From positions 1 to 64,000 of the forward strand of contig JACDDT010000001.1 of assembly GCA_013816855.1 (NCBI GenBank): a stretch of DNA of 64,000 nt. Reading direction: 5' to 3'. Each line of letters starts with the position of its first letter. The stretch's first letter is position 1. Below are positions 6,799 to 21,482 of this stretch, piece by piece. The notes beneath the pieces are model-generated. The model ran no database searches and had not been told where the DNA came from. It saw only the letters and a list, made by a program, of their open reading frames with translations. Source of the DNA: Gemmatimonadaceae bacterium. GTDB taxonomy: Bacteria; Gemmatimonadota; Gemmatimonadetes; Gemmatimonadales; Gemmatimonadaceae. The translations under genes were made by a program, and so were the position numbers.

Positions 6799-6944
6799 GA
6801 ACTACAAATAAAGACGACCGGCCTGGGGCTTTGGGCGGAGCGGCTTTTTGGCTTCGGGCCTCGTCCAAAAGTTTTCGTGTAAGGCCCGATGCCCACTGCG
6901 GCTCCGCCGACCGCTCCCGGCCGGTCGTTCTTATTTCGTAGTTC
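6799..6944. repeat. Large imperfect palindrome (about 62-nt arms) between convergent genes; left arm is a copy of a dispersed repeat
   Basis: GAACTAC..ATAA..ACGACCGGCC...GGCGGAGC...CGGGCC in the left arm (6799-6860) and in the reverse complement of the right arm (6883-6944). Confidence 0.75.
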
Positions 6945-7330
6945 TATCTGATTCGGTCCTTCTCCCGAATTTTCTCATTCGGGTTATCCACTTTCTCGGA
7001 TTCATCCGCACGCCTCGAGGCGCCGCGAAAGAGCAGCATCTCCTTGAGGTGCTCACGATTCATCAACGCGCCCGCGAGCAGCATCACCGCGCCCGCGATG
7101 ACCATCACCGTTCCCCAACGCCACGTGTCGCGCCCGATGAGCGCCGCTGCTTCGCAGAAGCATCCGCCTGCGACTAGCAGCTCGCCGCTCGCATTCACCG
7201 GCGCGCGCACGCGGCGCCGGCGATCGCGTCCGAACTGGAGACCCTGGGGCTTCAGCGCGTCGTAGATGAGCACGCCTCCGAGGAGGGTGACAATTATTCC
7301 AAGTACTACGGGGATTTGCTCGAGCCTCAT
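6944..7330 (-). CDS. Small membrane protein, unknown function
   Basis: Two predicted TM segments ('IPVVLGIIVTLLGGVLIYDAL', 'WGTVMVIAGAVMLLAGALM') and a charged C-terminus. Confidence 0.6.
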   Translation of the reverse strand: MRLEQIPVVLGIIVTLLGGVLIYDALKPQGLQFGRDRRRRVRAPVNASGELLVAGGCFCEAAALIGRDTWRWGTVMVIAGAVMLLAGALMNREHLKEMLLFRGASRRADESEKVDNPNEKIREKDRIR

Positions 7331-7427
7331 ACGCGCTGTGAATGCAAGAATAACGCGCGTTTCGCAAGCAGGTGTTCCGTGGGGCGGGGTTCAACCCCAA
7401 AAGGGAGCGCCGTATATTGACGGCTCA

Positions 7428-8345
7428 ATGTCCACCGCGCATCGCGACTTTCTCCAGATCACGGACTTCAGTCCCGCCGAGCTAAACGAACTATTCGTGC
7501 TTGCGGAACAAATGTGTGCCGGCGCCTACAAGAAGAAGCCGCTCGCCGGGAAAACACTGGCGATGATCTTCATGAAGTCGTCGACCCGGACGCGTGTGTC
7601 GTTCGAGGTTGGGACGTACCAGCTCGGCGGGCACGCGCTGTTTCTTTCCCCTCGTGATGTTCAACTCGGGCGCGGCGAGCCCGTCGCCGACACAGCGCGT
7701 GTGCTCTCGCGGTATGTCGATGGAATAATGATTCGCACGTTCGCGCACAGCGACGTCGTCGAGCTCGCCAAGCACGCCGAAGTCCCCGTCATCAACGGGC
7801 TCACCGATCTCGTTCATCCCTGCCAGGTGCTCGCGGACATTCTCACCATCAGGCAGACTTTCGGAACGCATCACGGTAAGCGCGTGGCGTGGATCGGTGA
7901 TGGCAACAACATGGCGAACTCGTGGATCAACGCTGCGCGCGTGCTTGGCTTCGAGCTGGTGCTCGCTTGTCCGGAAACCTACAGCCCGAACGCCGAATTC
8001 CTTTCGAAGGCGAGCGCGAATGGGAACGTGAGGCTCGTGCGCGATCCTGCCGAAGCCGCCGACGGCGCCGACGTCATCAACACCGATGTGTGGGCGTCGA
8101 TGGGTCAGGAGGAAGAGCAGGCGATTCGCGAGAAAGCGTTCAAAAATTTCACCGTCGATGCGAAGCTTATGAAGCGCGCGAATAAGGACGCGATCTTTCT
8201 ACATTGCCTGCCGGCTCACCGCGGCGAGGAAGTCTCGGCGGACGTGATCGACGGTCCGCAGAGCAGAGTGTGGGACGAGGCGGAGAACCGTCTCCACATT
8301 CAGAAGGCGATCATGGCGGCGCTCATGGGCGGCGAAAAGCTCTAA
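7428..8345 (+). CDS. argF: Ornithine carbamoyltransferase
   Basis: 'MKSSTRTRVSFEVGTYQLGG', 'VHPCQVLADILTI', 'HCLPAHRGEEV'; ATG at 7428. Confidence 0.93.
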   Translation: MSTAHRDFLQITDFSPAELNELFVLAEQMCAGAYKKKPLAGKTLAMIFMKSSTRTRVSFEVGTYQLGGHALFLSPRDVQLGRGEPVADTARVLSRYVDGIMIRTFAHSDVVELAKHAEVPVINGLTDLVHPCQVLADILTIRQTFGTHHGKRVAWIGDGNNMANSWINAARVLGFELVLACPETYSPNAEFLSKASANGNVRLVRDPAEAADGADVINTDVWASMGQEEEQAIREKAFKNFTVDAKLMKRANKDAIFLHCLPAHRGEEVSADVIDGPQSRVWDEAENRLHIQKAIMAALMGGEKL

Positions 8346-9568: not shown

Positions 9569-10066
9569 ATGCGCGTTGGGGTACTCACGATTTCGAATTC
9601 CGTATCCGGGGGAATGCGCAAAGATGAGTCAGGCGCGGCGATCGTGTCATGGGCGAAGTCGCACACGTATGAGCTCGTGGGGCAATCGCAGTGCGCCGAC
9701 GACACAGTCGAGATCGCTAGGCGGTTGATCGAGTGGAGCGACTCGGGAAACGTCGATCTGATTCTAACAACGGGTGGAACGGGACTTTCTCCGACCGACG
9801 TAACACCGGAGGCGACCCGCGTCGTAATCGAGCGCGAGGCGAACGGCATCGCCGAAATGCTGCGTGCAAAATCGGTCGCATCATTCCCGAAGGCGGCGCT
9901 GTCGCGGGGAATTGCCGGGGCGCGAGGGAAAACGCTGATCGTAAACCTGCCCGGCTCGCCCAACGGGGTGCGCGACGGACTTGCCGCGCTGGAGCCGGTC
10001 GTCGAGCACGCGTGCGACGTTCTCTCCGGAAAGATCCAGTCACACGACGAGGCTGCGAAGAAGTGA
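9569..10066 (+). CDS. Molybdopterin adenylyltransferase/MoaB-MogA family
   Basis: '[13 protein letters not shown]', '[21 protein letters not shown]', '[18 protein letters not shown]'. Confidence 0.92.
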
Positions 10067-11604
10067 AAGTCCTCATCACGCTAACCGACGTCGAGCCGGC
10101 AGTCCGTCTCAACGCCGCGCTCGAGAAGGCGGGAGTCACCACGTCGGTTGTCTCTCCGCTCGACGATCTTCGCGGCGAGATAAACAAGTTCAAACCTGAC
10201 GCCATCGTTATCACAGGTAATCTCGCCGATCTCTCCAGCATTCAGATCGTGCGCGACCAACTATGGCTCGGCACGGGGGTCATCGGCCTCGCCGACGTCG
10301 ATGACGCCGCGCTGCGCGAGCGTCTACGCGCGCTCGGGTTCGTCGACATTTATACGAAGCCCGTCGAGCCGGAGGAATTGTATCTCGCCGTGAGGCGCGT
10401 TCTCGACCGCCGACGTCTCACCGAAGTCACCGGTCTCATCGGACAGTCGGACGCGATCCGCGAAGTGCTGGTCAAGATCGAGCAGATAGCGCCGGTGTCG
10501 AGCACCGTCATCATCGAAGGCGAAAGTGGAACGGGAAAAGAGCTCGTCGCGCAGGCGATTCATCGTTTGAGCCCGCGGCGCAACAAGCCGTTCATCGCAG
10601 TGAACGCCGGCGCGCTTCCCGAGACGCTCATCGAGAGCGAGCTGTTCGGTCACGAGAAGGGCGCGTTTACTGGTGCGGCGGAGCGGAGAATCGGAAGGTT
10701 CGAGCTCGCAGACGAGGGCACCCTCTTTCTCGACGAGATCGGCGAGATTCCGCCGAGCACGCAGGTGAAGCTGCTCAGAGTTCTTGAGGAGAGGAAGCTG
10801 ACGCGAGTAGGTGGAACGGCGGAAATCCCGATCAACGTGCGCGTCGTGGCCGCCACGAACCGTCCGCTGAGGCAGGCGGTGGAGGCGGGCGAGTTCAGGA
10901 CGGATCTCTACTACCGCCTCAACGTGCTCAGCATCTATCTCTCGCCTCTGCGCGAGAGAAGGGAAGACATCGCACTGCTCGTGCGCCGCTTCATTCAGGA
11001 ATTCTCGACGCAGCACGACCGCGCCTTTCACGGAATCTCCGCCGAGGCGATGCAGATGCTGATGAGCTACCCGTGGCCGGGGAACGTGCGCGAGCTTCGG
11101 AATCTCATCGAGAGCATGGTGGTGCTGTCACCGGGGCACGAGATCGGACCGGACGACATCCCGCGGCAGATACGCGATGGCGGGTCGGCAAGATTTCTGC
11201 CGGTGCACGTCGGTCCGGTCGTGCGGAGCGCGCAGGGAGTGGAGGGAAGGGAGCTGGAATTCTTGGTGAGATCGATGCTCGAGCTCAAGCTTCAGGTGGA
11301 GGAGCTGCGAAGAAGAATGGACGACGAGGCGCGTCATCCCGATTGGCAACGGGAGATCCAGCCTCCGGTGTCATCGGCGGTGATCGCGGCACCGATCGAG
11401 CCGCCGAATCAGCCCGCGCCGCCGGCGACGGTGACGATCAATCCGGGGATGACGATGTCGGAGATCGAGCGCGCGGCGATCGAGGGGGCGCTCAAGGAGA
11501 CTCGTGGCAACCGAAGGAAGGCGGCGCAGATGCTCGACATCGGGGAGCGGACGATGTACCGGAAGCTGAGAGAGTACGGGATTCCGGTTGATGGGCTTCA
11601 GTAA
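10063..11604 (+). CDS. Sigma-54-dependent transcriptional activator with receiver-like N-terminus, AAA+ domain and Fis-type HTH
   Basis: '[15 protein letters not shown]', '[36 protein letters not shown]', C-terminal '[35 protein letters not shown]'; GTG at 10063 overlaps the mogA-like stop. Confidence 0.93.
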
Positions 11605-11613
11605 ATACGTAGG

Positions 11614-12601
11614 GTGACGCAGCCGACAACGCTGCTTATCTCCCGCTCCGACGTCGAGCGCCTTCTAGATATGGTGTATCGACGGCGTAGAGAGTGCGTT
11701 TCGCGAGAAAGGAAAGGGCGGCGTCTCTCCGAGCGGCGTGCTTGGAATACCGGTTGCGGGCGGTGGCTTTCACGCAAAGGCGGCAATGATGACGCTATCT
11801 CGTCCGTACTTTGTGGTGAAAACGAACGCGAACTTTCCGGGGAATCCGTCGCAGCGCGGGCTGCCTACCATCCAGGGATTGCTGCTTCTCTTCGACGCGG
11901 AGTGCGGGTCGCCGCTGGCTGTGATGGACTCGATGTCAGTGACAAGGATCCGGACGGCTGCGGCGAGCGCGGTAGCCGCGAAGCATCTCTCGCGGAGGGA
12001 CGCACGGAACGCAGTCTTCATCGGCTGCGGCGTACAGGCGCGCCCGCATGTCGCTGCGATTTCGGCTGTGCGCACACTCGAGCTCGTTTATGTGTATGAC
12101 ATTGACGCGAAGAGAGCCGAAGTCTTCGCGGACGAACTGCGGGCGGCGTATCCATTCAACGTCGAAGTCGCACGCAATATGTACTCAGCAACGAAGGCAA
12201 GTGACATCATCGTCACCCTGACGAGCGCGATGAAGGCGTTCGTCGGTCCCGATGACGTTCCGCAGGGCGCGTTTGTTGCCGCAGTAGGTGCCGACAACGA
12301 GCACAAGCAGGAGATCGAGCCGGAGCTGCTGCGCGGAAGCGCGTTAGTGGTCGACGATCTCGAGCAGTGCGCAGCCATCGGCGATCTCCGCGCTGCGATC
12401 CAGGCTTCTGTGCTTTCGCGGAAGGATGTGCGCGCGACGCTCGCCGAAGTCGTGGCGGGGGTGAAGCAGGGGCGGCTCAATGACGATGAAACGGTCGTTT
12501 TCGACAGTACAGGGGTGGCGATCGAGGACGTCGCGGCGGCAGCAATTGTTTATGAGCGGGCGTCGGCCAATGATGGCGTGAGAGTCGACTTCGGAGAATA
12601 A
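11614..12601 (+). pseudogene. Ornithine cyclodeaminase/mu-crystallin family gene with apparent -1 nt frameshift near 11671-11677
   Basis: Frame 1 encodes 'MTQPTTLLISRSDVERLLDM'; frame 2 then gives 'IDGVESAFREKGKGGVSPSGVLGIPVAGGGFHAKAAMM...VVKTNANFPGNPSQRGLPTIQGLLLLFDAECGSPLAVMDS', continuous with the family pattern. Confidence 0.8.
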
Positions 12602-12635
12602 TCATAGCGGCCGCGCGAAAACTCTGACGCGATCG

Positions 12636-14198
12636 CTATCTTATCGGCGAGATGTACCCCGTGCGGTAAAACGGCTGAACTTTTAGAAGCCACGGCCATC
12701 GCCTCTCGAAGGTCGACACCCTGATCGTTTCGGACTGTGGAACGACGATCCCGCATCCTTCCTGCTCGCTTACGGCAATGATCCGTGGATTCGCAGCTCG
12801 TGCGGAATCAACGGCTGCGCAGGAAATGTCGCGCGAGCGCAACACCGGGAGTTTCTTCGCCGCGCGTCCGAACTCAGCTAGCCTCTTCGCCCAGCCCCAG
12901 CTCGCAGCGTTTGCTGGCGGCTCCGGAACCGCTGCCACGATCTCGTTCGCGGTTGCTGCGCGCGACACCGATGCGATGATCGAGCTGTCCAGCCGGACAC
13001 GCAGATCGTGCCTTCGCACTGCGTTCCGCGCTTCGATCGCGGTGAGGCCGACGAGAAGGGCGGCCGTCGCAATTCCTGTCCATCCTGCTGATTCGCTCCG
13101 CTCGAACAACCAGCTCGACGCGCAAGCGGCGATGATGACCATTCCAAATCCGAACGGCACCATGTAAAAAGCCGAATGGCCCGGCCACGGGAGATATGCA
13201 ACGATTCCGGAAAAAAGCCAAAGCACACCGATCGCGATTGGCCACAAGTTTCTTCGCGCAGAGGGAGACGCAAGACCGTCGGCGATCAATGCGACCCAAA
13301 TCAGATTCGGGAGAACGAGGAGAAGCCGCCACGCAGGGTCTGCCCATACGCGCTTGAGAGTCGACAGGGGTTCTCTCCCGGGGAGGAAAGCAATTTCGAA
13401 ACGTTCAAGCGCAGAAGCGAACGAGATTCGTCCTGCGCCGTAGCGCGAAGCGTAGCTGTCGGCAGAAGCGTGATGCGCTACATAGGCGATAGGAATCGCG
13501 GCGAGAACGATCGCAGTCGTGAGAGCGGCGATAAGCTCTGTGTCGCCTCGGCGCCACGGCGCCCAACGGAACGCGCCGTCTCGTTTCTCGAGTCTTGCCG
13601 CTAGCCAGATCGCCGGGATGAGGACGACGAGAATCTCCTTCGAGAGGAGCATTCCGAAGGCGCACGATGCCAAGAGAAGCGCACGCCGGCGCGGGTTGGC
13701 GCGCGCCGCGTAATCGAGCGCAATCCCGAACGCAGAAAGCGCGAAGAGAAGTCCAATCGTTTCGCCGGTCGGCCGCAGCCAGCAATCGGCGAACGGTTTC
13801 ATCAGCGCCCAAAGCGCAACGGCCACAAATGCGGCGGATCTGCGGACACCCATCTTCAGCAGAACTCTTCGCGCAAGCAGAAGCACCGCCGAGTTGATCG
13901 CGAAGTAACTCCAATGCCAGCCGGCGGCTTCCGTGCCGAACGCTTTCCAGTCGAACGCGACCAACACGTATTGAAGCGGCGCGAAGCGGCCTTGGCTCGC
14001 CAAATAATCCGCTACGCTTCGAATTCCACTCCAGAACGAATTCCCCGCGAGGCGCGGGAGGAACTCCGAGAAATCGAGAATGGGAAGGCCGGGCGCGTTC
14101 CACGGCTGATATACGGCCGCGGCAAGAGCGATGAGGAGGAACGCTTCGCCGTTCTTCCCGAGGTAACCGCGAAATCCCGCCACGTTCGCTTTTCTCAC
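12636..14198 (-). CDS. Polytopic membrane protein, GT-C-like (mannosyltransferase-like) candidate
   Basis: About 10 hydrophobic segments; shares an operon with a methyltransferase and a GT2; ATG overlaps the stop of the upstream gene. Confidence 0.6.
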   Translation of the reverse strand: MRKANVAGFRGYLGKNGEAFLLIALAAAVYQPWNAPGLPILDFSEFLPRLAGNSFWSGIRSVADYLASQGRFAPLQYVLVAFDWKAFGTEAAGWHWSYFAINSAVLLLARRVLLKMGVRRSAAFVAVALWALMKPFADCWLRPTGETIGLLFALSAFGIALDYAARANPRRRALLLASCAFGMLLSKEILVVLIPAIWLAARLEKRDGAFRWAPWRRGDTELIAALTTAIVLAAIPIAYVAHHASADSYASRYGAGRISFASALERFEIAFLPGREPLSTLKRVWADPAWRLLLVLPNLIWVALIADGLASPSARRNLWPIAIGVLWLFSGIVAYLPWPGHSAFYMVPFGFGMVIIAACASSWLFERSESAGWTGIATAALLVGLTAIEARNAVRRHDLRVRLDSSIIASVSRAATANEIVAAVPEPPANAASWGWAKRLAEFGRAAKKLPVLRSRDISCAAVDSARAANPRIIAVSEQEGCGIVVPQSETIRVSTFERRWPWLLKVQPFYRTGYISPIR

Positions 14199-14971
14199 TC
14201 GCGCCGATCACCCGGCTTTCGCGCGACCGCGAAGAGAAGACTGCCGAAGGGGAGGTTCCACTCGTCCTCGCGGTCTGCCAATCGCTCCGCGAATCGCCAG
14301 CCGAGAAGACTCGCCCACGGCGACAGCGTGCAGAAGGTAGAGACGCGCTCTATTGCCCATCCGCTTTCCGTCAGGAGCTCGCGAAGCAGCGCGGCCGAAA
14401 AGTGTGTGACGTGCTGTTCGCCATCGAGCTTCGGCACCAATCGCAGCGAGTCAAGAGTCTTTTCGATTGCAGGCCAGACACCTGTAAAATTCGGCGTTGT
14501 GATGGCGATCGTTCCTCCGGGTTTGGTCAGCCCGTAGATGAGCCGGAGGAGCTCGCGGCTCTGATGGAGATGGATGTGCTCGATGAGCTCGAAGCAATAA
14601 GTGCGATCGATGGATTCCGGCGCGGCGGCCACCTCTTCCACCAGCGCCACCTCGAAGCGCAGAGCTTTGCGTCCGAATTGCTTGCGTGCGAATTCAATGG
14701 CCGCCGGATTTCCGTCGATCGCAAGCACGTTCGCGCCGTTTGACGCAAGGAAATCCGACACGATGCCTGATCCGCATCCGACATCGAGCACGGACTCGCC
14801 CGCTGCCGGCATGTTGTACTTGCGAATCATCCGCTCTTTTTCGGCGTGCCAAAACCGTTGCACCACGAATCCCCGGGTGCGCGCACGGAATTGATAGTCG
14901 CCGGCTATTCTGACGCTGTCGCCGGTTCGGACCGCGCGTGGCTGTTTATCGGGCGGAAAGATCGCGCTCAT
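14195..14971 (-). CDS. SAM-dependent methyltransferase (UbiG-like)
   Basis: 'SVLDVGCGSGIVSDFLASNGANVLAIDGNPAAIEFAR', 'YCFELIEHIHLHQSRELL'; start could be 15037. Confidence 0.85.
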   Translation of the reverse strand: MSAIFPPDKQPRAVRTGDSVRIAGDYQFRARTRGFVVQRFWHAEKERMIRKYNMPAAGESVLDVGCGSGIVSDFLASNGANVLAIDGNPAAIEFARKQFGRKALRFEVALVEEVAAAPESIDRTYCFELIEHIHLHQSRELLRLIYGLTKPGGTIAITTPNFTGVWPAIEKTLDSLRLVPKLDGEQHVTHFSAALLRELLTESGWAIERVSTFCTLSPWASLLGWRFAERLADREDEWNLPFGSLLFAVARKPGDRRE

Positions 14972-14996
14972 GTTCGCGCGCGCATCGATGGCTGGC

Positions 14997-15839
14997 TCAC
15001 CTAAGTGTTTCCGTAACCGAGCTGCACTCGGTGGCAACGAGCTCCTCGAGCTGCGGGCAATCGTACCGTCCGCGAAACCGATTAAAACGAAGGCGTGCGA
15101 GATCCGCCAGGCTTCGCACCGAGTCGCGGCCGATCCGAACTGACGAAGTGCGATTCACCTCGAGGACGACGGGCACTCTCTTTATCTCGAGCCCGTATGT
15201 GAGGGCCAGATAGATGAGCTCGACGTCGAACGAAAATCGTTCCAGCCGCTGAAGTGCGAAGAGCGCGTCGGCAACGTCCCCGCGAAACCCCTTGAGCCCG
15301 CACTGGGTGTCGAAGAACCCGCCGGTGACGAGAGTTGCAGTGATAAGAGAAAAAACGCGCGACGCGGCTCGGCGCATTACCGGCAGGTCGGTTGCGTAAC
15401 GTGATTGGGGAAAAGTGCGGTCGCCAATGACGACGTGGATGCGGCGGGTTCGAATGATCGATTCGAGTAGCAATATGGGAGCGATGCCGTAAGGAAGATC
15501 CACGTCGGTGAATATGCGAACCGCGCCGGTGGCCGCGCGCATTCCCGCGGCAACCGCCGCACCCTTTCCGCGGTTTTTCGGGAGCTGAATAAGGCGCACC
15601 GATCCGCCCGTTCCCCAATTCGCCCCGAAAGGGGAAGCGGGGAAGTCTCCGCCGCCGTCGTCAACGACGATGATTTCCCAGCGTGAAATTCTTCCGTGGA
15701 GAAAGGAGGCGAGAGTTTCCGCTGACGCGATCGCGAGACCTGCCGCCCTGTAGCAGGGAAGGATTACCGAAAGCGCGACAGGGTCTGTTGCCCCGCCTTC
15801 GAAGTCGCGGGTTACTGCCCCCACCTGAGAATGCCTCAT
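14997..15839 (-). CDS. Glycosyltransferase family 2 (polyprenyl/dolichyl-phosphate glycosyltransferase-like)
   Basis: 'LSVILPCYRAAGLAIASAETL', 'EIIVVDDGGGD', 'NRGKGAAVAAGMRAATGAVRIFTDVDLPY', 'DTQCGLKGFRGDVADALF'. Confidence 0.9.
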   Translation of the reverse strand: MRHSQVGAVTRDFEGGATDPVALSVILPCYRAAGLAIASAETLASFLHGRISRWEIIVVDDGGGDFPASPFGANWGTGGSVRLIQLPKNRGKGAAVAAGMRAATGAVRIFTDVDLPYGIAPILLLESIIRTRRIHVVIGDRTFPQSRYATDLPVMRRAASRVFSLITATLVTGGFFDTQCGLKGFRGDVADALFALQRLERFSFDVELIYLALTYGLEIKRVPVVLEVNRTSSVRIGRDSVRSLADLARLRFNRFRGRYDCPQLEELVATECSSVTETLR

Positions 15840-16057: not shown

Positions 16058-16780
16058 TTGACCTCACCGATAGCCGGCGCGGTGCTCCCCATCAAGCGGG
16101 CCGAGGATCTCATCCTCACCCTGCCGGGAGTCGTATCCGCAAAGATACTTGCGGGCGACAATGGAACTATCGATCAAATCCATGTCCTGGTCTCCGGCGA
16201 GCTGACCCCGAAGCAGATCGTCCGGAACATCGAGAGCGCTCTCGTGGCGCATCTCTCGATGCGGATAGACCACCGAAAGATTTCGGTAGCGACGACGACG
16301 GAGCCGAAGCAGAAGCGCTCGCGGGACGATTCGGGTGACGGAGGCGATGGGGGCGGAGCCCGTCCGGGCGAGGGAAAGCACTTCGGAACGGGTCGGCGGC
16401 TTTACTTCGAGGACGTGGAGGTCAGGGGCTCGAGGTTGAAGGGAGTGTCGTGTCGTGTGACTTTGCGGAAGGGGGACGCGTCCTGGACTGGGGAAGCTCA
16501 AGGAATTGAGGGAGACCGGTCGCGCCTGGATCTGGCGGCTCGGGCGACCGTCCTTGCGATCGCTGCCGCCGAAGGGAAGGAAGGCCAGCTGGCTGTCGAG
16601 GGAGTGAAGGTGGTAGAGGCGTTCGACAGAAGGTACGTTTTTTTGGCCGTCACCATACGAAGCGGCCGGGACGCGAAGTTGTTGGCGGGTACGTGTGAGA
16701 TTACGGAGAGCGCGGAGACGGCCAGTGTGCTGGCGGTGCTCAATGCGACGAATAGATGGGTGGATCAGGAGGCGGAGTAG
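16058..16780 (+). CDS. Uncharacterised two-domain protein with a Gly/Asp-rich linker
   Basis: Intact ORF (TTG start) with 'IDQIHVLVSGELTPKQIVRNIESALVAHLSMRIDHRKISVA', linker 'DDSGDGGDGGGARPGEG', then a second alpha/beta-looking region. Confidence 0.7.
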   Translation: MTSPIAGAVLPIKRAEDLILTLPGVVSAKILAGDNGTIDQIHVLVSGELTPKQIVRNIESALVAHLSMRIDHRKISVATTTEPKQKRSRDDSGDGGDGGGARPGEGKHFGTGRRLYFEDVEVRGSRLKGVSCRVTLRKGDASWTGEAQGIEGDRSRLDLAARATVLAIAAAEGKEGQLAVEGVKVVEAFDRRYVFLAVTIRSGRDAKLLAGTCEITESAETASVLAVLNATNRWVDQEAE

Positions 16781-16989
16781 CGCTCCTCTGAGATATATAT
16801 AGTAGTGATGGCTTAGTCAGAGATTTCGAGTTCAGGGCGAAACCTTTACCAGAGACCTATAGGATAAAAAGACCCCCGTCCCGGCAAGAGCGGAGTTGAG
16901 CGGGCAAGACATGGTTTAAGAGCGGAGCCGACCTTGGCAGCGCGTTTGGAGAAATCCGGCGCGACTTCACTTAAGGGAGGTGACGCGAA

Positions 16990-17043
16990 ATGTTTGAGTG
17001 GTTCCTATGTCTGTTCCGCGGTAGTACGCAAGGTTGGGACTAA
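16990..17043 (+). CDS. Candidate small ORF, 17 codons: MFEWFLCLFRGSTQGWD
   Basis: ATG preceded by GGGAGGTGA (near-perfect anti-SD complement) at 16976-16983, 7-8 nt upstream; lies between the unknown protein and the HD-GYP gene. Confidence 0.5.
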   Translation: MFEWFLCLFRGSTQGWD

Positions 17044-17069
17044 GTCGTGGTCGGGGGTTGTTTTTTTCT

Positions 17070-18380
17070 ATGTCAAAGATCGAACGCTATGTCTTCGCGA
17101 TCGCAGCGGCCGCAGTTACGGCCGCGGCCGTCTTGTACTCGCGATCCCCTTCGGTCACCAGCGAGTTTGTGCGTGTCGCGATCGTCTTTGGCTCAATAAG
17201 CCTCCTCGCGCGCACTCTAAGCCATCGCATAGCAAAGCACACCTCAGGTTCGCTTGCATTCATTCCCATGCTCGCGGGTGCTGCGATGGCGCCGAGCTGG
17301 ACCATCGTTGTATCCGCCGCATTGTCAGCGGTTGTTGAACAAATAATCGCACGGAAAGAGTGGCGGAAGACACTCTTCAATACCGCGCAGTATGCGCTTT
17401 CAGTTGCCGTGGCAGTTCTGGCATACCATGCTGCAGGCGGGCGAGCGTTGCATTCCATCGGCGAGGCAACGGCTGCATCGCTCATCATCCTGTTTCTTGT
17501 ATTCTTTCTTACAAATTCGTTGTGCGTGTCAGGTGCCATCTCGATTTCAACGGGTGAACATTTTGTCGAGGTGTGGAAGCGCGGAACTTTAGGTGAGTTG
17601 CCGTATGACTTCCTCGCACTTCCAGTCGTTTTATTTTTCATTTGGATTTTCACCGCCTTTGGCGCGTTGGGTGCGTTTTTCCTAGCGGTTCCAATCCTGG
17701 GAATTCGACAACTTTACATCGTGAACTCGCGCCTTGAGCAAACGAATCGAGAGTTGTTGGAACTGATGGTGGCGGCCATCGAGGCTCGGGATACTTACAC
17801 ATCCGGTCATTCGAGGCGCGTCGCGGCAAGCGCGAAGATCATAGCACGCGCGATAGGCCTACGATATCGTGATGTACAAAGAATCGGAATTGCCGCTTTG
17901 CTTCACGACGTTGGGAAAATCCATGATGTCTTCGGGCCGATCTTGAGCAAGCCTGGTCGTCTGACTCCGGAAGAAAACGCCATCATGAAGACCCATCCAA
18001 TCAAAAGCGAAGAACTTGCTCGTACAGTGACGGAACTGTCCGACGTACTTCCGATGATTCGTCATCACCACGAAAACTGGGATGGTTCCGGTTATCCAGA
18101 CCAGTTGGCGAACAACGCAATCCCACTAGGTTCGCGAATCATCATGTTTGCGGATACAATCGACGCGATGACCACCGACCGGCCGTATCGCGCGGCTCTT
18201 GGGGAGGCTGCTGTTCGTAGCGAATTGCAGCGTTTTCGCGGTACACAGTTCGATCCGCTGATTTATGATCGATTGTTAGCTAGCCCGGACTTCAGCTTGT
18301 TGTTCCGGAGTGGGGAATCAGGGGCGCGCACCCACCCCGGTGTTCGGGAAGGGATCGTCGGAGCTACAACGCTCGCTTAG
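17070..18380 (+). CDS. Membrane-anchored HD-GYP domain protein (putative c-di-GMP phosphodiesterase)
   Basis: N-terminal TM block; 'TSGHSRRVA', 'ALLHDVGKIHDVFGPILSKPG', 'MKTHPIKSEEL', 'IRHHHENWDGSGYPD', 'ADTIDAMTTDRPYR'. Confidence 0.92.
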   Translation: MSKIERYVFAIAAAAVTAAAVLYSRSPSVTSEFVRVAIVFGSISLLARTLSHRIAKHTSGSLAFIPMLAGAAMAPSWTIVVSAALSAVVEQIIARKEWRKTLFNTAQYALSVAVAVLAYHAAGGRALHSIGEATAASLIILFLVFFLTNSLCVSGAISISTGEHFVEVWKRGTLGELPYDFLALPVVLFFIWIFTAFGALGAFFLAVPILGIRQLYIVNSRLEQTNRELLELMVAAIEARDTYTSGHSRRVAASAKIIARAIGLRYRDVQRIGIAALLHDVGKIHDVFGPILSKPGRLTPEENAIMKTHPIKSEELARTVTELSDVLPMIRHHHENWDGSGYPDQLANNAIPLGSRIIMFADTIDAMTTDRPYRAALGEAAVRSELQRFRGTQFDPLIYDRLLASPDFSLLFRSGESGARTHPGVREGIVGATTLA

Positions 18381-18383
18381 CCG

Positions 18384-21300
18384 TTAGCTGGCCAGGAATA
18401 GTTCGGCGAAGTACTTAGGAACCGACGCCTGATCTCGTCTGAATTCTGTTAGATATTCGGTAAGCAATTGGGTCGCACGCGTAGCTTTTCCCATTGCGAC
18501 GAGCGCTGAAATTAGTGCAAACGCTTCAAAGTCGTTCCAGCCTGAGGCGCGATCCCGCAGATGAATTCTTTCCAGTTCATTGACCATTTCCGAAGCATCC
18601 GAATCGAAGCGTTGCTGGAGAGTAGCGACTCGAACCGCCGTAGCTAGTACCGGCCCTCGGAATGCTGTTTTGACTCCGTCTTGAGCGGCGAGCGCGGGGG
18701 CGATAACAAGCTTTGCTTCCTCGATTTTACCCTCGTTTAGCAGCACACGCGCTTTAAGGTATCGTTCCTGAACGAGAGTAATACTATCTTCCTGCGGAAA
18801 TTCCCAGGCGCTTGCTCTATCCAAATTCCTGCGCGCATCTGAAACTTTGCCTTCGGCCAAATCGAGTCTGATGAGCTGTAACATCAAGTATTTCGCGCGC
18901 ACGTAGAGGCGCCCCGATAACGCAGCTTCGATCGCCTCTTCCAGCAAGTGCCGAGCGTCAGCAAACTTGCCCATTATTCGTAGTGCCGTTGAGCAATTGC
19001 TGAAGTAAAACTGCGTCAGGGAGGGTTGTTTGCTTCGGCGAACAGCGGTAAGTACCTGAGCGATACTCGACAGCGTCAACTCGATATCTCCACGCGCACT
19101 GAAATAAACCATTTCTAGCTCATACTTTAGAATCTCGTCCGAATCTTCCTCGGGCTGAATCGGCGTAACGAGCCTGTAGATCTCGTCCATCGCTTCCGCA
19201 GAATTGATGTCACTCGCCATTTTCATCGCGAGATTCGCCGATCTGATTCGATGCTCGGCGGTGGCAGACGATTCTAGCATGCAATTCATCGCGTTTCTGA
19301 GCGGAAGCGTCAGGTCATCGGAAGATCGCCAAAGTGCATGGTGCATTTGGGTTTCATAGACGTCATGCGCAGTTGTGTCGGGTAGCGCAGCTCGTATTAG
19401 CCCGACAGTCGTGATGACGTCTGTCCATCGATGGGCGATTTGAAACGCTGTGACGGCCAGAGCCAGTACTTCCACCTCCGTTGGCTTTCCGCGACAGTAT
19501 CGTCTTAGTATTGCAAACGCGTCTCCTGCATCACTTGCCAATCCGAGGTCAAGCAGAGACTCCGCGTAGATGCGCCCAACCTGATATGCACGCTCCTCAT
19601 CCCCCGCCTTCTGCCAATGCTGCGCACAGGCCCACAGCAACGCCGTGTCCTGGGTGTTCTCACCCAACTCGCTTTCTAACACCTCGCCCGCCCTTCGGTG
19701 AAGAAAAGCCGCCGCATGGGGATCGAGCTCCTCGACCGCCACCGTCGCAATCAAATCGTGTTTCGGCGCGAGCTTAAAGTCTTTCGATCCCGCAATCGGC
19801 TTCCTCTCCGGTGACAGCATAGACGCCTTCGACAATTCGTTCAGCGCACCCAACAACATGTACGGCTCCTGTTGCAGCATCTTCTCCACCCTTGGCAGTG
19901 TCGAGTTCTCGCCAAGTACCGAGCACGCCTGCAGCAATTGTGTGCCCTCCGAGCTGAGACGTGAGAACCGCTCCCGAATGACTGTCGTAATAGACGGCGG
20001 GATCACGTGCCGCTGCTTCGTCTCAAGCCATTGCTTCACCAGCTCGTGAAGGAAGAACGGGTTCCCATCACCCACCGTTCTGCACCACGCCAGGAATTCT
20101 TCGTCCCCTCTCTCGTTCGTCGCATCGAACATCTCCCGGACGAGCGACGCCGAGGCGTCATTCGAGAGCGGCCTCAAATGATGCGTCACCAGACCTGCAC
20201 GAGTACACGCCTCCAGGAGCGGGTTCTCTCTCAAACGCGAAGTGAACAGCAAGAGCAACTGCTTGTTCGCGGCCCAATCCGCGAGCTGGCCCAGAATTCT
20301 CGCGCTTGCTGCATCGAGCCAGTGCACATCCTCCACGACGAGCATGAGACACTGCTCCTCCGACACCGCATCGATCAAATCGAATATCGCGAGACGTATC
20401 AGCTCAAAAATGCTCTGGGGGTCGAGCTCCATCGCTGACTTCGGCGCGCTCCCGATGTCGAACTGCGTGAGCCGCTGCAGATCCGCCATCGTGTCCGCCG
20501 AACATCCCAGAGCACCGCGCATTTCGCGAAGCTGTGGAACCGCCTCCACGAATACAGATAGCGGTCGCTGTGCGTCGCCGCGCCGGCATGCAACCCGGCG
20601 AACCTGTACTCCCTGCAGCTCTCCGAAATTTCCCAGCTCCACGGCCAAACGGCTTTTTCCAATACCTGCATCGCCCCATAGCAGACAGCAGCGCCCCTTT
20701 CCATCCCGCGCATCGTCGAGCAAGGTAGTGAGGAGATTCATATCCGGCTCCCGCCCGACGAAGATGCTTTCCGCCCTGCTGTTGAACGCGGCTTCCGGCA
20801 TACGTTCGGCGATCCGCTTCCGCATCAGATTCGCAGGAAGTTTGATCTCTCCTGCGGCGACGCCCAGATCCGCGACAAATTGATCTAGCATCGTCACGGC
20901 TTCCCGTTTCGCCCCGCGCATGGCCGAAGCTTCTGCGCGAGCGAGAACTGCTTCCTCGTTGAACGGATCGACTTCCATACATCTGAACGCCAGACGCTCC
21001 ACACGCAGCCAATCGCCTCTGCTTCGCGCGCGCCGGATGTCATTGATAAGCAGTCTGCTCGTCGCGGCGCTTACCTCGTTCCTTTTCGTGTCGAGCCAAC
21101 GGGAAAATTCGTCGGAAAAGGTCGGAGCGTAGCCGGGGAGGAATTGCAGTGACTCGATAGTGCCGATATCACCCGCATCGTGAACAAATAGGACGTCGAG
21201 ATCTGAATTGCGCGCGTCAGCGGGCAAGAGCACGGACTCGCGCGTCGCCTCGAGGGGTACACCGGCCTGCTTGAGCTGGAAGATCGTCTGACGAAGGCGA

Positions 21301-21482
21301 TGCTGTCTCGCGGAGTCAGCGATTCCAGGCCAAAGCGTCTCCGCCAACGTTGTCCGGCCTACCGGCTTCGCCCGCTCGAGAAAAAGATAGAGCGCCGCGG
21401 CGAATAGAATCTCCTGCGACGGCGTGAGCCGAGCGGTAGGCGTAACTATCTCGGCTTTGCCAAGTGCGCGGAGAGCGATCAT
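18384..21482 (-). CDS. SARP/BTAD-type regulator with AAA ATPase and TPR-like C-terminus
   Basis: N-terminal winged-helix/BTAD-like region ('LRQTIFQLKQAGVPLE', 'RRARSRGDWLRVERLAFRCMEVDPFNEEAVLARAEASAMRGAKREAVTMLDQF'), Walker A 'LLWGDAGIGKSRLAVEL', 'LMLVVEDVHWLDAAS'. Confidence 0.88.
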   Translation of the reverse strand: MIALRALGKAEIVTPTARLTPSQEILFAAALYLFLERAKPVGRTTLAETLWPGIADSARQHRLRQTIFQLKQAGVPLEATRESVLLPADARNSDLDVLFVHDAGDIGTIESLQFLPGYAPTFSDEFSRWLDTKRNEVSAATSRLLINDIRRARSRGDWLRVERLAFRCMEVDPFNEEAVLARAEASAMRGAKREAVTMLDQFVADLGVAAGEIKLPANLMRKRIAERMPEAAFNSRAESIFVGREPDMNLLTTLLDDARDGKGRCCLLWGDAGIGKSRLAVELGNFGELQGVQVRRVACRRGDAQRPLSVFVEAVPQLREMRGALGCSADTMADLQRLTQFDIGSAPKSAMELDPQSIFELIRLAIFDLIDAVSEEQCLMLVVEDVHWLDAASARILGQLADWAANKQLLLLFTSRLRENPLLEACTRAGLVTHHLRPLSNDASASLVREMFDATNERGDEEFLAWCRTVGDGNPFFLHELVKQWLETKQRHVIPPSITTVIRERFSRLSSEGTQLLQACSVLGENSTLPRVEKMLQQEPYMLLGALNELSKASMLSPERKPIAGSKDFKLAPKHDLIATVAVEELDPHAAAFLHRRAGEVLESELGENTQDTALLWACAQHWQKAGDEERAYQVGRIYAESLLDLGLASDAGDAFAILRRYCRGKPTEVEVLALAVTAFQIAHRWTDVITTVGLIRAALPDTTAHDVYETQMHHALWRSSDDLTLPLRNAMNCMLESSATAEHRIRSANLAMKMASDINSAEAMDEIYRLVTPIQPEEDSDEILKYELEMVYFSARGDIELTLSSIAQVLTAVRRSKQPSLTQFYFSNCSTALRIMGKFADARHLLEEAIEAALSGRLYVRAKYLMLQLIRLDLAEGKVSDARRNLDRASAWEFPQEDSITLVQERYLKARVLLNEGKIEEAKLVIAPALAAQDGVKTAFRGPVLATAVRVATLQQRFDSDASEMVNELERIHLRDRASGWNDFEAFALISALVAMGKATRATQLLTEYLTEFRRDQASVPKYFAELFLAS

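Follow-up and report, generated by a model that had tools for sequence, protein, structure and literature searches.

A conserved c-di-GMP gene arrangement with a putative control RNA and an unannotated micropeptide in Gemmatimonadota

Genes and predicted proteins of the locus

The window, the whole stretch of 64,000 nucleotides of a Gemmatimonadaceae bacterium analysed here, carries three reading frames in succession on its plus strand: the gene of a protein that we call protein A (16058-16780), a micro-ORF (16990-17043) and a MASE9-HD-GYP gene (17070-18380). The micro-ORF lies within a structured RNA (16866-17064, plus strand), the 5' part of which has repeated GAGCGRAG motifs. Further upstream, four genes at 11738-15839 (for an ornithine cyclodeaminase-like protein, a membrane protein that Pfam leaves unmatched, a methyltransferase and a glycosyltransferase) separate an NtrC-like regulator (9733-11604) from protein A, and they look like a lineage-specific insertion, since that regulator lies directly upstream of A in most relatives. 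On the other side, a large AAA_16 (BTAD-like) regulator encoded on the minus strand (18384-21482) converges on the HD-GYP gene, and 28 of 41 loci have a homologue in that position.

Protein A is a 240-amino-acid open frame with a TTG start in the position where its relatives also begin (with VTSPIAG at locus L032), and it carries both the motif quoted in an earlier sequence-only reading of this DNA and a G/D-rich linker. That reading had proposed a two-domain protein, which is borne out by an AlphaFold model (mean pLDDT 75, low confidence at residues 1-10 and 82-112) in which the linker, residues 82-112, is disordered between two folded domains. The N-terminal domain (about residues 10-80) is modelled as alpha-beta-beta-alpha-beta, with K52, R56, D71-H72-R73 and S76 near-invariant among the relatives compared. 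The C-terminal domain (116-239) is modelled as (beta-beta-beta-alpha)x2, for which Foldseek returns the regulatory-domain fold of LeuA and citramalate synthase (CMS; probability 1.00, best E 9e-5), the probability being 1.00 both to Mycobacterium tuberculosis LeuA and to the LiCMS regulatory domain. The PF08502 (LeuA_dimer) profile leaves the window's protein A unmatched and reaches a best E of 0.042 in one of 11 members, which is not significant. Because the fold matches and the profile score falls short, we assign the C-terminal half to the LeuA/CMS regulatory fold, with membership of PF08502 unsupported. Protein A shares the (beta-beta-beta-alpha)x2 fold with these regulatory domains but, unlike LeuA and citramalate synthase, has no synthase barrel and fuses the regulatory-type domain to an unassigned N-terminal domain. 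On account of its C-terminal fold, protein A may bind a small metabolite.

Pfam, NCBIfam and PHROG gave no family match for protein A, and PDB sequence searches with the protein and with its profile returned chance matches only, so the earlier description of it as unassigned stands, and none of these collections places it in a known unrelated family. Searches of viral contigs and phages found no relatives of A, leaving a phage or mobile origin without support. Among 200 genomes of Gemmatimonadota, 135 have a homologue at E up to 0.001, and removal of 16 weak matches, probably to one domain only, leaves the A-positive set of 119 genomes used below. Two Bacillota records also carry protein A, at 24-32% identity. 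One protein that matches the C-terminal half of A (L071) was first read as a LeuA enzyme; this was rejected, since the protein lacks a synthase domain and belongs with the two-domain proteins as a divergent paralogue. Where the C-terminal domain occurs alone, its genes sit in unrelated operons and are uninformative on the role of A. In many Gemmatimonadota genomes such a stand-alone LeuA-fold domain is encoded together with lytic transglycosylase-like and MoaC-like genes in a gene cluster that is conserved (L119-L126).

The HD-GYP protein matches MASE9 (PF20972) at 35.2 bits, above the gathering score of 24.3, and HD_5 with an E of 1e-32, and its catalytic motifs HDVGK and HHENWDGSGYP are intact, in agreement with the catalytically intact membrane HD-GYP that had been read downstream of A. 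The start listed for this gene, TTG 17034, is too early; relatives and the sequence itself make ATG 17070 the likely start, giving 436 amino acids (MSKIERYVF...). Domain order and catalytic motifs are those of MASE9-HD-GYP phosphodiesterases (PF20972 plus PF13487), and the protein is a probable c-di-GMP phosphodiesterase, an enzyme that is ordinary by itself. The window gene differs from these phosphodiesterases in what lies ahead of it: protein A, and a structured RNA that contains a conserved micropeptide ORF. In the open-access literature searched, no paper joins MASE9 with HD-GYP.

Conservation and co-occurrence across genomes

Neighbourhoods were compared in 41 loci with their flanks, window included, by clustering all ORFs; the wide sampling covers Gemmatimonadota genomes, and the Bacillota evidence comprises two records. 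A MASE9-type HD-GYP gene lies downstream of A on the same strand in 33 of the 41 Gemmatimonadota loci, and an HD-GYP gene follows A in both Bacillota loci, one from Natranaerobius and one from a record labelled Subdoligranulum, so the HD-GYP neighbour recurs in other genomes as the sequence-only reading would have it. The conserved neighbours of A are NtrC-like, GGDEF, HD-GYP and AAA_16 regulator genes, and in both Bacillota records (L078, L079) a DUF5317 gene comes after the HD-GYP gene.

Some individual loci deserve separate mention. On the Natranaerobius thermophilus plasmid (L078), the HD-GYP region at 6938-8229 is split into frames of 65 and 365 amino acids with a truncated MASE9 and may be frameshifted, and a 28-aa micropeptide ORF, unannotated, starts near 6810. 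The other Bacillota record (L079, OY725879.1, labelled as a Subdoligranulum variabile plasmid) is unannotated and contains A, a 25-aa micropeptide, HD-GYP and the DUF5317 gene. In one Gemmatimonadota locus (L040, genome G126), the micropeptide and the HD-GYP gene appear frameshifted and A is intact, which points to joint decay or assembly errors.

Conserved order could reflect ordinary synteny, in which A, the small ORF and HD-GYP have nothing to do with one another and remain adjacent because rearrangement within one phylum is slow, and A works in amino-acid metabolism. This explanation draws on the LeuA-type fold of the C-terminal domain and on a large upstream block (argF, gcvT, mogA-like and NtrC-like regulator) that is also syntenic with A in many loci. 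However, several families in which the block is moved or absent keep HD-GYP beside A, the same order occurs in Bacillota, and one genome (G031) has a second A paralogue with its own micropeptide and its own HD-GYP. The strong joint loss of A and MASE9 and the GGDEF enzymes ahead of A, both described next, also speak against it, and we regard this already disfavoured explanation as very improbable.

In the window's family, 56 genomes have both A and MASE9, two have A without MASE9, none has MASE9 without A and 11 have neither (Fisher p 4e-11), and the RNA hairpin R1 described below is part of the same co-occurrence. Across all 200 genomes, the corresponding numbers are 98, 21, 5 and 76 (p 7e-29). 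Since the genomes are related, these p-values overstate the number of independent events; better evidence is the co-loss in several genera, the second set in G031 and the separation seen in G026 and G104, two genomes of one genus in which RNA, micropeptide and HD-GYP lie kilobases away from A. The 21 of 119 A-positive genomes without detectable MASE9, where some matches fall near contig ends, count against the main model developed below. Overall, the genome comparison indicates that gains and losses of A and of the MASE9 sensor coincide, and that the tightest unit is RNA plus micropeptide plus HD-GYP, which is able to travel without protein A. Recognition of this unit, like that of the structured RNA around the small ORF, goes beyond the sequence-only reading. 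In G026, a second micropeptide, MMDFLSSAWNAVAKIAAALSGGIEWQ, is found after A (L060, about 9273), the HD-GYP gene with its own micropeptide having moved 13 kb off.

In nine loci from three families (L061, L062, L066-L070, L073 and L074), A is immediately preceded by a gene for an iron-sulphur/hydrogenase-like protein that ends in an intact GGDEF domain, one member having been scanned against Pfam and the motif checked in all nine; some of these genes overlap the start of A by 4 nt. An intact diguanylate cyclase directly before A ties A independently to c-di-GMP, and in most of the nine loci A adjoins both a c-di-GMP synthase and a c-di-GMP phosphodiesterase. Together with the co-occurrence in the window's family, these loci support the interpretation of the locus as a c-di-GMP module. 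Protein A itself, judged from its modelled fold of the amino-acid-effector LeuA type, may be a cytoplasmic sensor or adaptor in the same c-di-GMP pathway. The iron-sulphur/[FeFe]-hydrogenase-like GGDEF fusion is possibly a redox-sensing diguanylate cyclase.

The micropeptide and its leader RNA

The micro-ORF encodes the 17-residue peptide MFEWFLCLFRGSTQGWD behind a near-perfect Shine-Dalgarno sequence; TTAAGGGAGGTGACGCGAA stands before the ORF, and the strong Shine-Dalgarno is AAGGGAGGTGA. In a strict scan, requiring this Shine-Dalgarno sequence, the length and a C-terminal Trp, 31 of 41 loci have such an ORF in the 560 nt that follow A, compared with 11 occurrences in the other 1.38 Mb scanned, which upholds the well-initiated small ORF proposed between A and HD-GYP. 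Scanning by the Shine-Dalgarno sequence only, we find that most loci have an ORF of 16-26 aa in the corresponding position and that the peptide almost always ends in Trp or Trp-x. Across loci the micropeptides are 16-28 aa long and hydrophobic, with a strong Shine-Dalgarno sequence in nearly every locus. Between close pairs, nucleotide differences at codon positions 1/2/3 number 28/15/55, and two loci (L066 and L069) encode an identical 24-aa peptide with nine synonymous and no non-synonymous codon changes. This codon bias and the exclusively synonymous changes argue for purifying selection on a peptide, and comparison of relatives thus indicates that the micro-ORF is real.

Trp is the last or second-last residue in 52 of 56 distinct peptides, a figure that partly reflects how candidates were chosen, some of them by this very rule. 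The last residue is variable, and Trp is missing from the last two positions in two peptides of Gemmatimonadota and in the two of Bacillota (MNKVVLILVTLLGVVLAGGASFTWGGGG and MKKILFALASLCSLVLASGAFFCVR, neither of them annotated), all of which weighs against the main model developed below. The median best 11-residue window reaches 2.0 on the Kyte-Doolittle scale, and, with its hydrophobic body and terminal Trp, the micropeptide looks like one that resides in the membrane next to the membrane-bound sensor enzyme.

In length, hydrophobic body and aromatic tail, the micropeptide resembles ComS- and SHP-type pheromones, raising the idea that it is the precursor of an exported signal sensed by MASE9, by which cell density would set c-di-GMP. 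The micropeptide nearly always adjoins the membrane sensor enzyme, and its variable polar tail with Trp, also reminiscent of short pheromone precursors, differs between species within a constant architecture. Unlike ComS and SHP, however, it is encoded within a structured RNA beside HD-GYP, and the conserved neighbourhood contains no dedicated exporter, protease or Rgg-type receptor. A pheromone would also leave the enclosing RNA unexplained, and we consider it distinctly unlikely.

The leader RNA folds with an MFE z-score of -2.2 in the window, and its repeated GAGCGRAG motifs are seen in Gemmatimonadota and partly in Bacillota. Rfam gives no match for the window at the gathering threshold and none for this region at E up to 1, c-di-GMP riboswitches included. 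Like GEMM-I and GEMM-II, it is a structured leader before a c-di-GMP gene, but it differs from them in lacking an Rfam match, in its GAGCGRAG motifs and in its embedded ORF. The regular spacing of GAG had suggested a TRAP- or CsrA-like RNA-binding arrangement; this idea was dropped, as the repeat is non-uniform and no protein could be linked to it.

Ahead of the micro-ORF start, a covarying hairpin (16918-16992, plus strand) buries the Shine-Dalgarno sequence of the micropeptide by pairing GCG-GA-GCC-RA-CC with GG-GA-GGU-GA-CGC, the Watson-Crick steps being separated by tandem G-A mismatches. The covariance model built on it, R1, matches 57 of 200 genomes, nearly always as a single copy ahead of the micropeptide. 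In the alignment of the 33 matches, pairing holds in 83% of cells, and one helix of eight pairs has changed on both sides at seven of them; covariation is 0.294, against 0.117 for shuffled controls and at most 0.062 with the partner slid, a figure that is inflated because the alignment was fitted to the model, although the slid control nonetheless collapses.

The start of the leader (GACCCCCG, 16871-16878, plus strand) also pairs over a long range, in a second helix, P1, with a strand between the micro-ORF stop and the HD-GYP start (CGGGGGTT, 17052-17059, plus strand), usually 5-15 nt past the stop and just before the HD-GYP start. Other loci pair AAACCCCCGACTCCGGC/GCCGGAGTCGGGGGTTT, GTCCCCGTCAACC/GGTTGACGGGGAC and GGGGGGGAATCC/GGGTTTTCCTCC, and the Bacillota strands are TAACAGGGAC/GTCCCTGTTA. 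Cognate strands score 33.6 on average against 23.2 for strands swapped between loci, with none of 20,000 permutations as good, and unconstrained folds form P1 in 92% of loci compared with 35% of dinucleotide shuffles. The 8-bp match of the window alone is unexceptional (9 of 30 shuffles do as well), and the claim for P1 therefore rests on the comparison across loci. Two points count against the main model: with the G/C-rich strands of P1, some long-range pairing is likely by chance, as the shuffles indicate, and the HD-GYP start falls outside P1. The micropeptide and HD-GYP could also be regulated separately. Folding of the leader across loci yielded one conserved structure and identified no conserved alternative. 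An intrinsic terminator at P1 was rejected: the U-run in the window is absent from most relatives, and a terminator scan called none there.

In leader-peptide attenuators such as TnaC or SpeFL, the regulated gene is closely preceded by a leader RNA that folds and contains a short ORF. The locus has such a coding ORF in a structured leader, to judge from the Shine-Dalgarno sequence, the codon-position bias and P1 around the ORF, and it shares with these attenuators the short ORF and a Trp near the C-terminus. It differs from them in that the micropeptide is strongly hydrophobic, its own Shine-Dalgarno sequence is sequestered in a conserved hairpin and the controlled gene encodes a c-di-GMP enzyme. 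The micropeptide might accordingly be purely a leader peptide, whose nascent chain, prompted by a metabolite, would stall the ribosome at the stop, as in TnaC, with the C-terminal Trp near the peptidyl-transferase centre; P1 would be kept open, HD-GYP would be on and the free peptide would have no function. The ORF lies wholly inside P1, its stop close before the 3' strand, which is attenuator geometry, and selection acts on the amino acids; the frequency of terminal Trp fits as well, partly selected in the strict set and seen in nearly all loci of the scan that ignored Trp. However, conservation of the membrane-like body extends far beyond the requirements of a stall motif, the Bacillota peptides resemble classic membrane-inserted peptides, one of them without Trp, and the second micropeptide of G026 follows A with no recognisable HD-GYP behind it. 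A purely leader function seems doubtful to us, and with modest confidence we favour a role of the micropeptide on MASE9.

A possible switch on the phosphodiesterase

Comparison across loci establishes the gene order, its conservation, selection on the peptide, covariation of the hairpin and pairing of P1, and the arrangement of protein A, RNA, micropeptide and HD-GYP is well supported on these grounds. From this anatomy we infer an RNA switch and a role for the micropeptide. In the closed fold, the starts of both the micropeptide and HD-GYP would be poorly accessible. A signal, for which the GAGCGRAG-rich 5' part or protein A might provide the binding site, would open the Shine-Dalgarno hairpin, and a ribosome could then translate the micropeptide; on reaching the micro-ORF stop, it would cover or melt the 3' strand of P1, allowing the phosphodiesterase to be translated. 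The micropeptide, a short hydrophobic stretch with a terminal Trp, would probably sit in the membrane and tune the MASE9 sensor. Possible ligands of the leader RNA are c-di-GMP, an amino acid or protein A.

The joint reading, in which a conserved c-di-GMP operon is controlled by its own leader RNA, translation of micropeptide and phosphodiesterase is coupled and the peptide acts on MASE9, has in our judgment slightly less than an even chance. More tentatively, a micropeptide of about 20 residues from a new class of structured RNA may be the partner or the external signal of a membrane HD-GYP and thereby set the c-di-GMP level, with the LeuA-fold protein as metabolic input. A leader RNA with a small ORF that controls a signalling gene is of a known kind, and there is a fair chance of something more unusual here. 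No account of the arrangement, the RNA or the micropeptide turned up in the open-access papers searched, and literature outside that set may differ.

Conserved across Gemmatimonadota and recurring in Bacillota, the arrangement looks like a real, undescribed form of c-di-GMP control. It brings together three undescribed parts, namely a two-domain protein family, a micropeptide family missed by annotation and a structured RNA without an Rfam entry, all attached to an enzyme that acts on a central bacterial signal, in a soil phylum that has been little studied and again in Bacillota. Encoded directly before the enzyme and inside its putative control RNA, the micropeptide offers a testable answer to the question of what membrane HD-GYP proteins detect with their sensor domains.
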